Of a stretch of 20,330 nucleotides of DNA, positions 2 through 16,186 are shown in pieces (position 1 is the stretch's first letter; every line of letters begins with the position of its first letter). This DNA is from a virus, in IMG/VR virus record IMGVR_UViG_3300038954_000112, positions 1 through 20,330 of that record. One strand, 5' to 3'. The notes beneath the pieces are model-generated. The model was not told where the DNA came from, did not search any database, and was given only the letters and a program-made list of their open reading frames with translations. The position numbers and the translations under genes are program-made.

Positions 2-700
2 GAACAATACAAAGGACTTAATTTTGCCAATGGTGCTATTTGTAGTAGTGTATTGAAAAGAGATTTACGTAAACAATGGCAGAAAGATAACCAATACAGC
101 TATCAAATATTCGGGTATGATATTGACGAACCGAAAAGGGCAAAAGCCTTCACAATAAATTATCCAGAAGCTAAAGGGTTTTATCCGTTGCTTATGCTTG
201 GATATTCTAAAAAAATGTGCGTTGATAAGGTTGAGAAAGCTGGCATCGAAATTCCTTTAGCTTATAGGCTTGGTTTAAATAATAACAATTGTTTGAAAAC
301 TGGTTGCGTTCAGGGAGGTATTGGATATTGGCAGAAAATTAAACGTGAAATGCCTGATAAGTTTGAAGCAATGGCAAAAGTTGAACATAAATTAACCGAT
401 GCAAAAGGGGAGCCCGTGACCATGCTGAAAGACCAAAGTAAAAAAGCAAAGGATAGCGGGAATGAATTGGTGTTTTTAAAACCGCATCCAGACTATCCGC
501 ATATTAAAGACATAAGCATGATGAAAGGCAGAGAACCTAAACCATTGAAGGATTGTTTTGGTGAATGTGGAGTGACTGACTTGGAAAGAAATCCAACGGA
601 AAATGAAATAAACTTTGCTAATCCTAATGGCTTTGAAAAAGCCAAAGTGGGCGGGCAAAAAATAAATTATGGTCTATTTGCACAAGCTTCGATTAAATGA
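2..700 (+). CDS. PAPS-reductase-like adenine nucleotide alpha-hydrolase family protein, 5' end outside window
   Basis: The reading frame is open from the first complete codon at base 2, so this is the C-terminal part of a longer gene; the TTG at 53 is internal. The visible text has the look of phage-encoded phosphoadenosine phosphosulfate (PAPS) reductase-like proteins: an AICSS segment followed by a basic KRD..R stretch, a CVDKVEKAGIEIP helix, and a cysteine pair in NCLKTGCVQGG, with another cysteine pair (CFGEC) near the end. The ATP-binding PP-loop expected at the N-terminus lies upstream of the window and cannot be checked. Members of this superfamily activate sulfate or adenylate RNA or DNA bases for thiolation; the true substrate here is unknown. 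The stop TGA overlaps an ATG (ATGA) that opens a 28-codon frame. Family assignment is from memory of the motif pattern, not a search. Confidence 0.72.
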   Translation, partial: EQYKGLNFANGAICSSVLKRDLRKQWQKDNQYSYQIFGYDIDEPKRAKAFTINYPEAKGFYPLLMLGYSKKMCVDKVEKAGIEIPLAYRLGLNNNNCLKTGCVQGGIGYWQKIKREMPDKFEAMAKVEHKLTDAKGEPVTMLKDQSKKAKDSGNELVFLKPHPDYPHIKDISMMKGREPKPLKDCFGECGVTDLERNPTENEINFANPNGFEKAKVGGQKINYGLFAQASIK

Positions 701-11530: not shown

Positions 11531-11874
11531 CTTAAATACGCCATTTGCACCTGCTGCTCATTATACAATGATTTCAGTTTTCTGATTTCAATTATTTCTC
11601 TACCATCTACATTCTCAACAAAACCACTGGACAAATCTGCCAGTTCCCCTAACCACAGCATCCCACCTTCTTGCAATTCAGTATCTGTCAGCACAGCTGC
11701 CTTGCTTATTATCTCATCCCCCAGTTTGTTCTTTACTTTTTGTTTGATCACGGTCCAGCGACAGTTAATCTGAACCGGACTATCAAACTCAATTCCTGCT
11801 CCGGTGTTTGTTGGATTGCCCCAATACACCGCTTTGTCTGTAAGAACTCGTGATATGGTTGTTTTCAAACTCAT
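11527..11874 (-). CDS. Head-closure / minor capsid protein
   Basis: A 115-residue protein with AVYWGNPTNTGAGIEFDSPVQINCRW near the N-terminus and mixed beta strands afterwards (IISKAAVLTDTEL, GREIIEIRKLKSLYN), a pattern seen in phage head-closure or minor-capsid-1-like proteins. It lies between the connector and the gp10-like gene, the position expected for the stopper that seals the portal after packaging. Coupled to both neighbours by ATGA overlaps. Confidence 0.72.
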   Translation of the reverse strand: MSLKTTISRVLTDKAVYWGNPTNTGAGIEFDSPVQINCRWTVIKQKVKNKLGDEIISKAAVLTDTELQEGGMLWLGELADLSSGFVENVDGREIIEIRKLKSLYNEQQVQMAYLR

Positions 11875-12239
11875 AAGGACTTAAAAATTGCTTTCTTTCT
11901 TGCTTGCTTTGCCATTATTCCTGTGGTGTCTAATTGCACCACCAATTGCCCATAACGGGTACTTCTCAGCCCTTCTGCATATAGCTTTGAATTAGTAAGA
12001 TATTTCACAGTCACATCCCCTACTTTTTCTTCGATAGGTGGACGGTCTTTTGTGGAAGCTATGAAATGACAAGTCAGATATTTTTCAATCTCGATCAACC
12101 TATCATCAGACATACCCTGCCCATCCAGTTTTTCGTCCACTTGCATGGAAGCGGTTGAAATGAAGCTGCTAATGTCATCATCCACTAATGTGGTATGGAT
12201 TATTTTCTTCACCTCTTCGACTGTTGTCCTTACTGCCAT
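11871..12239 (-). CDS. Head-tail connector protein (gp6-like), 122 residues
   Basis: The start is taken as ATG 12239 (MAVRTTVEEVKKI): this ATG shares one base with the upstream stop (TAATG). The longer frame from 12269 would only add METETEREKI by overlapping the sulfotransferase gene. The helical N-terminal half (EVKKIIHTTLVDDDISSFISTASMQVDEKL) and RLIEIEKYLTCHFIAS are typical of HK97 gp6-type connectors that form the ring below the portal. The DNA-packaging neck genes follow in canonical order. Confidence 0.75.
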   Translation of the reverse strand: MAVRTTVEEVKKIIHTTLVDDDISSFISTASMQVDEKLDGQGMSDDRLIEIEKYLTCHFIASTKDRPPIEEKVGDVTVKYLTNSKLYAEGLRSTRYGQLVVQLDTTGIMAKQARKKAIFKSL

Positions 12240-12943
12240 TATCTTTTCCCTTTCTGTTTCTGTTTCCAAAGTTTAGGTTCAATGAATTCCTGCACGTCAT
12301 CATGTTTATAAGGCAGTCCCAGCCATTTGAACAATTCATCCAGCTCTGTATAACTTTCCTCCTGTACTAACTTCTCAGGCCAGATTTGCTTAATGTCCAG
12401 TCCAGCAGCATGCATATCAGCGAACCGTTTCTTGTGTTGATTAATCCACCAAAGCCATCCTGCCTGCTCATCCTCAGCATTAATTTTCTTCAATACATGG
12501 TCACGGGCGTAAGCATTCATAAATCCAGTACGCAAACAAGAATTAATAATGTCCTGATCATTTCTACGTACAATTATCCATTGAGCTTCTGGAAATGCTT
12601 CATGCCAGACTTGCCAATGCAGCGCCATTTTAGCGCCCTTATAAAACCAGCGCTGATCCTTCAATCCTTGTTTCTGCAATATTCCCAGCACCTGATCTCT
12701 CCAATTTTTGATAACCAAAACATTGCGCTTCGGAATTGGATATTGTCCTTTTGGGTCGCAGCCCAGCCCGGATAAATACGGCTTCACTAAACGCTCCCTG
12801 AGTTCGTGATTCTCGAACATGCCCTTAGCGTTATAAATGCTGGCGCCGATCAAATCCCCTCCCCATACTCCGGACAGGTTAATCAATCCAGCCATTAGAC
12901 TGGTGCCGCTTCTTGGAACGCCTGTTATCAAAATTGGTTTCAT
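12239..12943 (-). CDS. Sulfotransferase family protein
   Basis: A 234-residue protein that should transfer sulfate from PAPS to an acceptor. The 5'-phosphosulfate-binding loop is plain at residues 8-15 (GVPRSGTS), near the N-terminus as in the family. The 3'-phosphate-binding region is recognisable at 125-136 (VRRNDQDIINSC) with arginines and Ser135. Length is normal for a minimal sulfotransferase domain; there is no signal peptide or membrane segment, so it is cytoplasmic. It overlaps the glycosyltransferase-like gene by four bases (ATGA) and the connector gene by one (TAATG). The acceptor is unknown; its neighbours suggest a glycan. Confidence 0.88.
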   Translation of the reverse strand: MKPILITGVPRSGTSLMAGLINLSGVWGGDLIGASIYNAKGMFENHELRERLVKPYLSGLGCDPKGQYPIPKRNVLVIKNWRDQVLGILQKQGLKDQRWFYKGAKMALHWQVWHEAFPEAQWIIVRRNDQDIINSCLRTGFMNAYARDHVLKKINAEDEQAGWLWWINQHKKRFADMHAAGLDIKQIWPEKLVQEESYTELDELFKWLGLPYKHDDVQEFIEPKLWKQKQKGKR

Positions 12944-13554
12944 AGTCTGTAATATTTTTTCACCCAGTCTTTGTTGACTTCGTGCGGGCGTGGTTTACCG
13001 TGAAAAATAACCATATCAGCATCCGGTTCTCCGTTCTTGCAGTCATGTTTGTATGAAGCAAGTCTCAGGTTGTGGTCGACGTTCAGCCGTTTTGGCGTTA
13101 TTCCATTTCTGAGCATTTTGTCATATGCCCAAACCTGCTCCAGTCTGTACCAGCCTTGCACTTCATTTGGATCGAATAGAACATTGAAATCACCATTCCA
13201 AAGCATTGGGTTATTGCCCCATTTAACTGCCCAAGGCTTCATGCCGTATAATTCATCCTTTGCAATCTCAATATCAAATAACCAGCTAACATCCTTCAGA
13301 AATACAGTATCTAATCCAGTCACCATCACATGACCTGTTTCCCTGAATGCTTCGTGCATGCAGAATCTGCCTGTATAGGTGCTGATCAAAGGCTTTGCAA
13401 TTACTTCTGTGCCTGTGAACTGCTCTGGGACATCAGTATAACAAATAAACTGATCTACTACAGGAACCATGCGCTTAACCTGGGCATGCAAAACCATTAC
13501 ATGCTCCTTTCTATAATCCCCTCCGGTTTTATACACGCAAACAAATTTCTTCAT
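12940..13554 (-). CDS. GT-A-like glycosyltransferase-family protein
   Basis: This 204-residue protein has a GT-A-like start (FVCVYKTGGDYRKEHV), a central TGLDTVFL at 79-86 in the place where nucleotide-sugar transferases of the GT8-like type carry DLDxV, and a late IFHGKPRPHE (183-192), the H-G-x-P-x-P-H motif seen in phage and bacterial relatives. The aspartate normally first in the D-x-D pair is Gly80 here, leaving Asp82. It may still bind a sugar nucleotide with altered metal use, or act on another activated substrate. No signal peptide. ATGA overlaps on both sides tie it to the DUF115-like and sulfotransferase genes. Confidence 0.75.
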   Translation of the reverse strand: MKKFVCVYKTGGDYRKEHVMVLHAQVKRMVPVVDQFICYTDVPEQFTGTEVIAKPLISTYTGRFCMHEAFRETGHVMVTGLDTVFLKDVSWLFDIEIAKDELYGMKPWAVKWGNNPMLWNGDFNVLFDPNEVQGWYRLEQVWAYDKMLRNGITPKRLNVDHNLRLASYKHDCKNGEPDADMVIFHGKPRPHEVNKDWVKKYYRL

Positions 13555-14246
13555 AACACTTCCTGGATTGGTAATTTTTGGAACTGCTCAATTTTACTGT
13601 TCATACTGGTATTGATTATCTCCAACTCTAATTTCTTAGCATCCTCAGCCAATGCATTGAAGCATGACAGATGCCTTTTGAATGGTAGACCTTTTACATG
13701 CCCGCGTGTCAGCGGTTGTCCTTTCTTGGTGTAATGATTATGCCAGTGCTGGTAGGCGTTTGTTAGCGCCATATCAAACCCCAGCAATACCACTTTCTTA
13801 GCTCCAAACAGACACGCTAAATTAATAGCAGCCGCTCCGCTATTGTAATTGAAAACGATTTCTGTTTTGGAAAGTCCTGTTTTCTTTGCAGAACGTGGAA
13901 TGTAATGAATGTTCTCGTATCTGAACCGCTCATTTTTGAACAATTTATGACAGCTATACTTCAGCCCCTTGTACTTCCGCAGTGCTGCCTGGTTTTGTTC
14001 AAAGAATGTATTATCCCCAAAAAAGCAAACATCTACCCACTCACCTAACATATAAGCCGCATTCACGCCTATTACATGTTTGTTGTGAAGAGCAGAAAAG
14101 TAAGGTGCATATTCGCTCATAGGTGCTTTTTTTGTTCGCACCTGCTGTACCAGTTCTTCAGGAATGCCAAACTGCTCAATCACAGAAGGACCTCCACCAA
14201 TGATATACACCGTACCATCTTGCCATATTTTGGGAATGCTGCTCAT
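13551..14246 (-). CDS. DUF115/GT42-like transferase (MptE-like fold)
   Basis: A 231-residue protein with the glycine-rich nucleotide-binding start YIIGGGPSV (14-22), VIGVNAAY (58-65), FFGDNTFF (75-82), NSGAAAINLACLFGAKKVVLLGFDM (135-159 region) and HWHNH (167-171). This ordered set is shared by the DUF115 superfamily, which includes the archaeal pterin pyrophosphokinase MptE, Maf flagellin glycosyltransferases and, more distantly, GT42 sialyltransferases such as CstII. In a glycan cassette, sugar transfer is likelier than pterin chemistry; that is inference. Start ATG shares one base with the preceding stop (TAATG). Confidence 0.78.
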   Translation of the reverse strand: MSSIPKIWQDGTVYIIGGGPSVIEQFGIPEELVQQVRTKKAPMSEYAPYFSALHNKHVIGVNAAYMLGEWVDVCFFGDNTFFEQNQAALRKYKGLKYSCHKLFKNERFRYENIHYIPRSAKKTGLSKTEIVFNYNSGAAAINLACLFGAKKVVLLGFDMALTNAYQHWHNHYTKKGQPLTRGHVKGLPFKRHLSCFNALAEDAKKLELEIINTSMNSKIEQFQKLPIQEVL

Positions 14247-14584
14247 TACTGATTCAATTCCTCCACCATTTTGTTGGCAGCATCTTCACGCAGTGATTTT
14301 TCATTAATAACTTTGCCGTTATCATCCACCACGTCAAACCACCCGGCAGCTTTTTCTTTCACTGAGTATTGATGTTTTTCAACATCATCCAGTTTCTCAG
14401 AATTGTCTTTGCCTTCAACAATTACTTCCACCAAATCCATGAACCCCTTTGGGATTTCAGCTGGATAGGCGACAAATACCTGTTTTGGTTTGATGATTGT
14501 TTGCTCTTCATTCTTCAAACGAACACTAGAAGAACCTAACCATCTGTATTGTCCTTGCCCTTCGGCTAATTTTTGACGTTTCAT
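14246..14584 (-). CDS. Phage structural-cluster protein of unknown function, 112 residues
   Basis: Located just after the major capsid gene. The N-terminus is basic with QGQYRWLGSSSV; the C-terminal third reads QYSVKEKAAGWFDVVDDNGKVINEKSLREDAANKMVEEL, a strand-hairpin-helix typical of a small domain found in phage proteins beside the capsid gene (YqbF-like in appearance). Its role could be head fibre, decoration or connector; I cannot decide. The leader is A/T-rich with no SD and a 47-base gap separates it from the capsid stop. Confidence 0.6.
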   Translation of the reverse strand: MKRQKLAEGQGQYRWLGSSSVRLKNEEQTIIKPKQVFVAYPAEIPKGFMDLVEVIVEGKDNSEKLDDVEKHQYSVKEKAAGWFDVVDDNGKVINEKSLREDAANKMVEELNQ

Positions 14585-14631: not shown

Positions 14632-15702
14632 CTACGCTGACAAATGAACAATACCACACTGACTGTCCTCATCCGCTCTGATCTGTGGAACTTGGATTGA
14701 CATAACCTTGTAGTTCGTCACCATTCCACCCTGACTTCTCCATTCCAGGTTGGTCATCGCCATGCCATCCACGAGGCGTACGGTATCAGAAGTCATCTGA
14801 ACCATTACAGCATTGTCATCCGGCAAGTGATCAGCTACGGTCACAGCATCCAAGTTGGCAATTTCCAGAAGACGTTGTCTTACTGTCTTGCCGCTGGTGG
14901 CGTTGTAATCCTCATCAATGATGGTTTCCCAATTTGATGGAATGTACAGCACGTATGGGCCGTATTTGTTTTTGTCCAGCATCTTCTGCTTCATCTGAAG
15001 CACTTCCTCCAGAATACCTTCTGCTGTTTTGCCGGAAGCGTCCCAGGCAGTGCTGAGGGTCTGTGTCTGGCGGCTTGGGAAGCTCAAATAGGTGTAGATC
15101 GTGCCTCCACCAAAGCTGTAACTGGTATCAGTGAACAGCAAATCTTCCAACTTTTCACTTACTTTCCTTGCAGCTCTTTCAGCCTGCTCAGTGTCCAATG
15201 GGCTACCCATGTTACGGCTTGCGGCCAGCACCCTTGCGTTGATCTCATAATCGCTGTGGATTATAGGCAACGGAAGATAAGTAGTGCTGTAAGTCGGGCG
15301 GTCATTCTGTCCACGGGTCAATCCATCCATACTCATACTGGCGCTTCCACCATCATCAACAGAATGACTTTCCAGAACAGTGCGGCCCATACCATTTCCG
15401 ATGTTATACACCAGACCACGGCTGCGCAGGTCGTTAATGCCGATCAATCGCTCACGGCTTACTCTCAATACAGCTTCATCCAGTGCTTTCCACTCATCCC
15501 GGCGGAGTGTGGCATTTGCCTGGATTGGCATTGCTTTCAATTTGCCATTACTTTGCATCACGTTCCGGTAGGCCTGAAGGGCTCCGGTTTTCGTGTTGAC
15601 TACTACGAATGGGCGGAAGGCGTGTTTGTCCATGCCGTTTGCAATCATTTGATTGGCGACATTTCCAGTTCCTTGTCCATTCACTATTGCATCCATACTC
15701 AT
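14632..15702 (-). CDS. Major capsid protein, encapsulin-like (HK97 fold)
   Basis: This 356-residue protein follows the encapsulin/linocin-M18 pattern: RRDEWKALDEAVLRVSRERLIG (67-88 region), MSMDGL (123-128), YLPLPIIHSDYEINAR (142-157), PLDTEQAERAARKVSEKLEDLLF spine helix (168-190), GPYVLYIPSNW (248-258; T. maritima encapsulin has GPYTLVINTDRW), then AVTVADHLPDDNAVMV and VTNYKVMSIQVPQ. It carries about 60 more N-terminal residues than encapsulins, enough for a scaffold or delta-like extension. A strong SD (AGGAGG at 15716-15711, eight bases from the ATG) fits its high expression. A second ATG at codon 3 is a less likely start. Confidence 0.9.
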   Translation of the reverse strand: MSMDAIVNGQGTGNVANQMIANGMDKHAFRPFVVVNTKTGALQAYRNVMQSNGKLKAMPIQANATLRRDEWKALDEAVLRVSRERLIGINDLRSRGLVYNIGNGMGRTVLESHSVDDGGSASMSMDGLTRGQNDRPTYSTTYLPLPIIHSDYEINARVLAASRNMGSPLDTEQAERAARKVSEKLEDLLFTDTSYSFGGGTIYTYLSFPSRQTQTLSTAWDASGKTAEGILEEVLQMKQKMLDKNKYGPYVLYIPSNWETIIDEDYNATSGKTVRQRLLEIANLDAVTVADHLPDDNAVMVQMTSDTVRLVDGMAMTNLEWRSQGGMVTNYKVMSIQVPQIRADEDSQCGIVHLSA

Positions 15703-15760: not shown

Positions 15761-16186
15761 TTACGCTATGCGAACAATTATACGTGATGCGGTATCTCCA
15801 CTGTCACTCAGATCAACTGCTTCAGTAGCATACGCCACTATTTGCACGTTGCCGCTGGTTTCTGCACGCAATCTTCCATTACCATCGCTTTCCAGCGCAT
15901 CTCCAATACTTACATCCTCACCTGAAGCGAGAATCATATTGGCCATGTCTCCACGGCGTGGAACCCATACCTGCACCGGATCACCAGAGCTGTATGCATC
16001 ACTGATTTCATCTCCTTGCAGCTCGTCTTCCAGAGCGATCATCAACTGAGCAGCACCCGCGGCAGTTGAATGTGCCTGCACTTTACCTGCTGATGTTTCT
16101 TCAACCAACATTCCTGGAGTGATTGCTGCTGCGGCAGTAAACTCCTCGTTGATCTTTGTGTAATCTTTTACTTTGATAGTATTCAT
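15761..16186 (-). CDS. Head decoration-type protein (gpD-like/DUF2190-like in appearance)
   Basis: A 141-residue alanine-rich acidic protein directly before the capsid gene. The motif set GMLVEETSAGKVQAHST, LMIALEDELQGDEI, DPVQVWVPRRGDMANMIL and VSIGDALESDGNGRL is that of small beta-barrel proteins found beside phage capsid genes, comparable with capsid-stabilising decoration proteins. A GAGG SD-like site (16198-16195 minus strand) lies eight bases before the ATG. Exact family is not certain. Confidence 0.7.
   Translation of the reverse strand: MNTIKVKDYTKINEEFTAAAAITPGMLVEETSAGKVQAHSTAAGAAQLMIALEDELQGDEISDAYSSGDPVQVWVPRRGDMANMILASGEDVSIGDALESDGNGRLRAETSGNVQIVAYATEAVDLSDSGDTASRIIVRIA

Follow-up and report, generated by a model that had tools for sequence, protein, structure and literature searches.

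Glycosylation of virions by virus enzymes is known. Mycobacteriophages Che8, Rita, and their relatives (Freeman et al. 2023) encode glycosyltransferases, and the glycans on their major capsid protein influence antibody recognition, as cited in PMC11256854 and PMC12691614. For chlorovirus PBCV-1, PMC7019647 describes a mostly virus-encoded machinery, a cytoplasmic capsid glycan, and glycan variation that gives rise to antigenic classes. Maf proteins are cytoplasmic and act on a protein acceptor (PMC11339370). Finally, sulfotransferases of family PF13469 have been reported as phage auxiliary genes, the function of which the authors call unclear (PMC10580990).

The DNA analyzed here (the window) is a 20,330-base IMG/VR virus record with a siphophage structural operon on the minus strand, in the order portal, MuF, protease/DUF2213, decoration protein, DUF6260-type major capsid protein, a small gene (hyp112), three cassette genes, DUF4054 connector, further neck genes, tail tube, and tape measure; some of the neck and tail gene names were assigned from order and sequence. 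The three cassette genes, intact ORFs that fill positions 12239 to 14246 exactly, belong to the families assigned to them in an earlier, sequence-only reading. The features are as follows.

11871 to 12239, minus strand: DUF4054 head-tail connector (PF13262, over the cutoff), the downstream border of the slot.
12239 to 12943, minus strand: PAPS-type sulfotransferase, 234 aa (PF13469, invariant loop, AF2/Foldseek), the downstream end of the island.
12940 to 13554, minus strand: GT8-like GT-A glycosyltransferase, 204 aa (phrog_1962, family profile versus GT8/glycogenin), the variable middle gene of the window phage.
13551 to 14246, minus strand: DUF115/GT42-like glycosyltransferase, 231 aa (phrog_4603, AF2/Foldseek), the upstream end of the island.
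14246 to 14584, minus strand: hyp112, a small partner gene between the capsid and DUF115-like genes.
14632 to 15702, minus strand: major capsid protein, DUF6260/encapsulin-like (PF19774, E 1e-21; phrog_771), a candidate acceptor.
15761 to 16186, minus strand: head decoration/cement protein (PF09956, phrog_766), a candidate acceptor.

The overlaps of 1 to 4 bases that had been described were all found (hyp112/DUF115-like, 1 base; DUF115-like/glycosyltransferase, 4; glycosyltransferase/sulfotransferase, 4; sulfotransferase/connector, 1, the connector likely starting with the ATG at 12239 to 12237), but the cassette stops short of the major capsid gene, from which hyp112 separates it. As the best explanation, which we hold to be somewhat better than an even bet, the three genes would make up a reduced version of a sulfoglycan island encoded by phages, placed in the structural operon and building a glycan on a virion protein.

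Like the window lineage, the mycobacteriophages encode their own glycosyltransferases. Their transferase genes, however, lie near the 3' end of the genome (PMC11256854), whereas the island described here occupies the slot between capsid and neck genes, and PMC11256854 and PMC12691614 describe no sulfotransferase, APS kinase, or fixed-end capsid-neck island. PBCV-1 differs in being a eukaryotic algal virus with unrelated genes, and a sulfation locus is not described in the passages of PMC7019647 consulted. Pseudomonas phages D3 and PAJU2 and Tetraselmis viridis virus S20 likewise have, between capsid and neck genes, a DUF115-like gene accompanied by nearby methyltransferase or glycosyltransferase genes, but their capsids were not matched by the capsid profile of the lineage, nor did the sulfotransferase profile find a match in them. 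In S20, an isolated marine virus (L170, record positions 26950 to 33219), the stretch from the presumed capsid gene to the head-closure gene contains two DUF115-like genes, one GT-D gene, one GT2 gene, methyltransferase genes, and a relative of the window glycosyltransferase. Given DUF115-like genes in the cultured D3-like phages and this larger glycosyltransferase island in S20, the habit of filling the slot extends beyond the present capsid family.

The parallel to Maf proteins and flagellin drawn by the sequence-only reading holds for the fold superfamily (GT42/MptE), which is common to Maf and the window DUF115-like protein; as this is all that they have in common, Maf is a loose model and not a closer one. 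The Maf flagellin glycosyltransferase is a large multidomain protein of a flagellar locus, whereas the window protein is a single domain of 231 residues in a phage head-neck operon without flagellin; Maf-like flagellin glycosylation was therefore rejected as a model on the grounds of size and context. The genes of PMC10580990 belong to the same family, PF13469, but linkage to a structural operon or to an APS kinase is not reported there. Sulfation, PAPS supply, and an architecture of fixed ends and a variable middle set the locus apart from the known systems compared here, and no description of it was found among the open-licence papers searched; sulfation by a conserved locus that also provides its own PAPS appears to be new.

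The DUF115-like protein matched phrog_4603 ("alpha-2,3-sialyltransferase"; E 2e-30) and contains the motifs IGGGPS and QHWHNH. Its AF2 model (pLDDT 90.6) was matched by Foldseek to the GT42 sialyltransferase Cst-I (probability 1.00, TMq 0.56) and to an MptE-type kinase (probability 0.99), a remote relationship, as the E values were only about 1e-3. Since the window protein falls below the PF01973 (DUF115/MptE-like) cutoff (21.9 versus 34.6 bits), we call it DUF115-like and assign no Pfam membership; 20 of 25 relatives matched PF01973 at an E of ≤0.01 (best, 5e-8). A CI repressor, the best PDB sequence match of the DUF115 profile (E 0.004), was judged spurious.

At the other end of the island, the sulfotransferase exceeded the curated cutoff of PF13469 over the whole protein (28.9 versus 27 bits), as part of a family in which 31 of 33 relatives matched at an E of ≤0.01. 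TGVPRSGTS, which contains the motif that had been pointed out, spans residues 7 to 15, and the TGxxRSGTS loop, R127, and S135 are present in the window protein and invariant among its relatives (alignment A5); we take the RSGTS loop to bind PAPS and the Arg/Ser pair, with its spacing of 8, to form the 3'-phosphate site. With an AF2 model (pLDDT 92.5) matching sulfotransferases at a Foldseek probability of 1.00, the protein is a predicted PAPS-dependent sulfate transfer enzyme.

The middle protein is a more divided case. It matched phrog_1962 glycosyltransferases (E 3e-14), and its family profile matched a GT8 galactosyltransferase structure (E 2e-5) as well as GT8 and glycogenin (about 4e-3); the protein itself had no Pfam match. 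HGKPRP, from the third motif noted earlier, is found at residue 185. The metal-binding DxD is absent, a point that the sequence-only reading had missed, with GLD at residues 80 to 82 where DLD is usual in the family, so that the window copy may be altered or inactive. Since the same G variant is found in L036, L084, and L159, these proteins may constitute a glycosyltransferase subfamily with altered chemistry.

A scan with the sulfotransferase as query yielded 73 viral contigs, in nearly all of which this gene directly precedes the connector and neck genes; both end genes were present in the same order in 18 of the 19 complete slots of this set. Since this choice of query favored loci with the sulfotransferase, the capsid protein alone served as query in a second scan. 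The best 80 of at least 593 matches were used, so that the following counts describe the nearer relatives of the window: among 37 loci spanning the slot, the DUF115-like gene was found in 35, the sulfotransferase in 34, both in 33, and a glycosyltransferase of the window's family in 23. In all 33 loci with both end genes, the DUF115-like gene comes before the sulfotransferase, at a distance of −45 to 6,978 bases (median, 1,831). The order of the slot is capsid gene, hyp112, DUF115-like gene, middle genes, sulfotransferase, connector. Recurrence in 33 of 37 capsid-found loci (again from the best 80 of at least 593 matches) makes the arrangement more than chance, and the rarity of co-occurrence in the slot that had been named beforehand as evidence against the cassette was not found. 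What was proposed as a three-gene unit is, in these loci, a fixed pair at the ends, whereas the middle glycosyltransferase (23 of 37) is not fixed.

The exceptions, namely, an empty slot in L125, no sulfotransferase in L092 and L157, and no DUF115-like gene in L131, indicate that the island is dispensable in some phages. It was not seen in any of the remoter capsid relatives inspected, among them the cultured Brevundimonas phage MaInes, the archaeal virus Hardycor1, and the Klebsiella virus KpV2811, and a tblastn search of 50,697 records revealed no cultured phage carrying this sulfotransferase. The loci are metagenomic, many of them fragments, and the evidence consists of sequence and predicted structure. 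A genome scan gave hits at seven loci, each within a metagenome-assembled genome (Deltaproteobacteria/Desulfosarcina, Rhodospirillales/Rhodospirillaceae, other Proteobacteria, and Campylobacterales). Several of these hits are only short and weak, and the seven loci may come from stray contigs of viruses; a host assignment was rejected.

Between the fixed ends, 46 nonredundant complete slots contain zero to nine middle genes each, and these turn over far faster than the flanking genes. At 60 to 70% capsid identity, 127 of 151 pairs of loci have no middle gene in common (≥40% identity), as do 8 of 11 pairs at 70 to 80%. By the same threshold, the DUF115-like gene is common to 84% and the sulfotransferase to 90% of pairs at 60 to 95% capsid identity; with Mantel correlations to capsid identity of 0.61 and 0.34, respectively, the inheritance of both end genes follows that of the capsid. 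Glycosyltransferases of phrog_1962 account for 31 of the 91 middle genes of the capsid-anchored loci (best 80 of at least 593 matches), next to GT2, methyltransferases, epimerases, UDP-glucose dehydrogenase, polysaccharide-synthesis enzymes, and further sulfotransferases. Nucleotide-sugar enzymes, GT9, Polysacc_synt_2, and one GtrB-like PHROG are also among the middle genes. Radical-SAM enzymes, short-chain and zinc dehydrogenases, a PfkB kinase, and transketolases come in addition from the loci anchored by the sulfotransferase. Three middle genes of the latter set contain NUMOD3 (homing-endonuclease-type) motifs (alignment A2) and are a possible vehicle for island turnover.

A family search of the long records uncovered an APS kinase in L041, inside the island and against the sulfotransferase gene. 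A profile of this gene found 17 APS-kinase-like copies in 2.36 Mb of fetched sequence, those of L002 to L004 being near-identical. All are shortened and lie beside the sulfotransferase; three examples are given here, and the others are in 14 other loci.

L041, 7544 to 7999: APS-kinase-like gene.
L006, 2798 to 3169: APS-kinase-like gene.
L008, 1680 to 2102: APS-kinase-like gene.

Sixteen of the 17 abut or overlap a sulfotransferase ORF, with overlap lengths that are approximate because ORF starts were set mechanically, and one is 269 bases away; the gene is found on either side of the sulfotransferase, depending on the phage. As the loci were picked for a nearby capsid or sulfotransferase gene, this linkage applies within the neighborhood and is no genome-wide rate. 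All eight copies tested exceeded the PF01583 (APS kinase) cutoff (56 to 79 versus 21.1 bits), although the match covers only about 100 of 152 profile positions, hence the designation as shortened forms; the conserved P-loop and DGD-type positions are kept. The product should make the sulfate donor PAPS. ATP sulfurylase was not found in 40 records; complete phage-borne PAPS synthesis was rejected on this ground, and the phages would use host APS. Neither the window nor most relatives show an APS kinase in the slot. Where present, its position is evidence for a functional sulfation route linked to the building of the glycan; together with the pairing of the end genes in 33 of 37 slots (best 80 of at least 593 matches), it lends support to the coupled pathway that the sequence-only reading had suggested. 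No paper linking a phage APS kinase to a sulfotransferase was found among the open-licence papers searched.

O-antigen seroconversion cassettes of the gtrABC type need a membrane flippase and membrane-anchored transferases. A simple hydropathy scan found no hydrophobic 19-mer in the three window proteins and a membrane-type hydrophobic segment in 9 of 166 middle genes, five of the nine belonging to one gene family. Enzymes that are nearly all soluble disfavor a lipid-linked host-surface pathway and favor cytoplasmic modification of a protein from the same operon. On this argument, we propose that soluble enzymes, co-produced with head and neck proteins, would assemble a short glycan and link it, in the cytoplasm, to a protein of the virion. 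The DUF115/GT42-like enzyme would be the constant core transferase that starts or extends the glycan, the variable middle genes (in the window phage, one GT8-like protein) would set the sugar structure, and the sulfotransferase, as the final constant enzyme, would transfer sulfate from PAPS onto this common product. The benefit would most likely be an altered contact of the particle with binding proteins, surfaces, or host polymers.

The acceptor could be the capsid protein, the decoration protein, or hyp112. Solubility, the location among structural genes, and inheritance along with the capsid together favor a virion protein; operon position alone is no proof of a virion target. The hyp112 protein combines an N-terminal part of generic type with a C-terminal mini-domain whose consensus is GWYDVVDxxGKxxNEKALR and which is duplicated in some cases (alignment A9). 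This mini-domain was present in phages that have the island and missing from every island-less relative inspected, among them L125, which apparently lost the island. Since most of the remaining island-less phages are outgroups, this association amounts to effectively one independent loss and is no more than suggestive; hyp112 is a candidate acceptor or docking protein. No relation of hyp112 to D3 orf6.5 or to the post-capsid genes of MaInes and KpV2811 was detectable, and the post-capsid gene of Hardycor1 gave at most a weak N-terminal match.

More broadly, and more tentatively, the relatives may represent a widespread uncultured lineage with variable sulfated virion glycans, specified by a serotype-like island whose ends are fixed and whose middle can be swapped, in which a phage APS kinase boosts PAPS in some members. 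The locus offers a testable answer on what phage sulfotransferases do: they would add sulfate to a glycan that the phage itself makes and that is probably carried by the particle. If true, virion glycosylation would extend to sulfated glycans and O-antigen-like diversity would exist on phage particles, and "auxiliary" sulfur genes, such as APS kinase, would be virion-building genes.

Modification of the host surface, with sulfated sugars on lipopolysaccharide, capsule, or exopolymer that block superinfection or the sticking of virions to debris, would be consistent with O-antigen-like variability as well, and several middle genes resemble O-antigen or capsule enzymes (GT9, epimerase, UDP-glucose dehydrogenase, Polysacc_synt_2, and the GtrB-like PHROG). 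We nevertheless consider it unlikely, given the scarcity of hydrophobic helices (none in the window proteins, one each in 9 of 166 middle genes) and the embedding of the genes between head and neck genes, where late expression is expected. Improbable, too, is direct tyrosine sulfation of a virion protein independent of the glycosyltransferases: by fold and by sequence, protein-tyrosine sulfotransferases rank high among the matches of the island enzyme, but a mycobacterial sulfotransferase comes first by fold and further bacterial ones match as well, and the enzyme is in fixed linkage with a glycan island. Moreover, the profile match to TPST dropped from an E of 3e-8 to 0.004 once second-copy sulfotransferases were removed, and tyrosine sulfation was downgraded accordingly.

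That the slot is merely a tolerant insertion site gathering unrelated cargo would fit the very variable middle and the NUMOD3 genes of some islands, but it is a very improbable reading with both ends fixed, the end genes co-inherited with the capsid, and contents overwhelmingly of one theme. Phage DNA glycosylation exists, and the thymidylate-synthase family is a usual marker of base hypermodification. Sugars and sulfate on phage DNA bases, a reading for which this precedent and the nucleotide sulfation or glycosylation roles suggested for phage transferases (PMC10829341) can be cited, are the least probable of all, as the genes are in a structural operon and that family was found in only 2 of 21 long records, one over the cutoff.

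Outside the slot, an open-ended plus-strand ORF at window positions 2 to 700 looks by eye like the C-terminal part of phage PAPS-reductase-like proteins, and a 71-aa plus-strand ORF at 2337 to 2552, apparently truncated, has a KIDGTN motif as in RNA ligases; neither had a Pfam match. In a few relatives, a second multikilobase insertion follows the sulfotransferase or DUF4054 gene and precedes the stopper gene (L038, 8738 to 14304; L129, 14086 to 16889).
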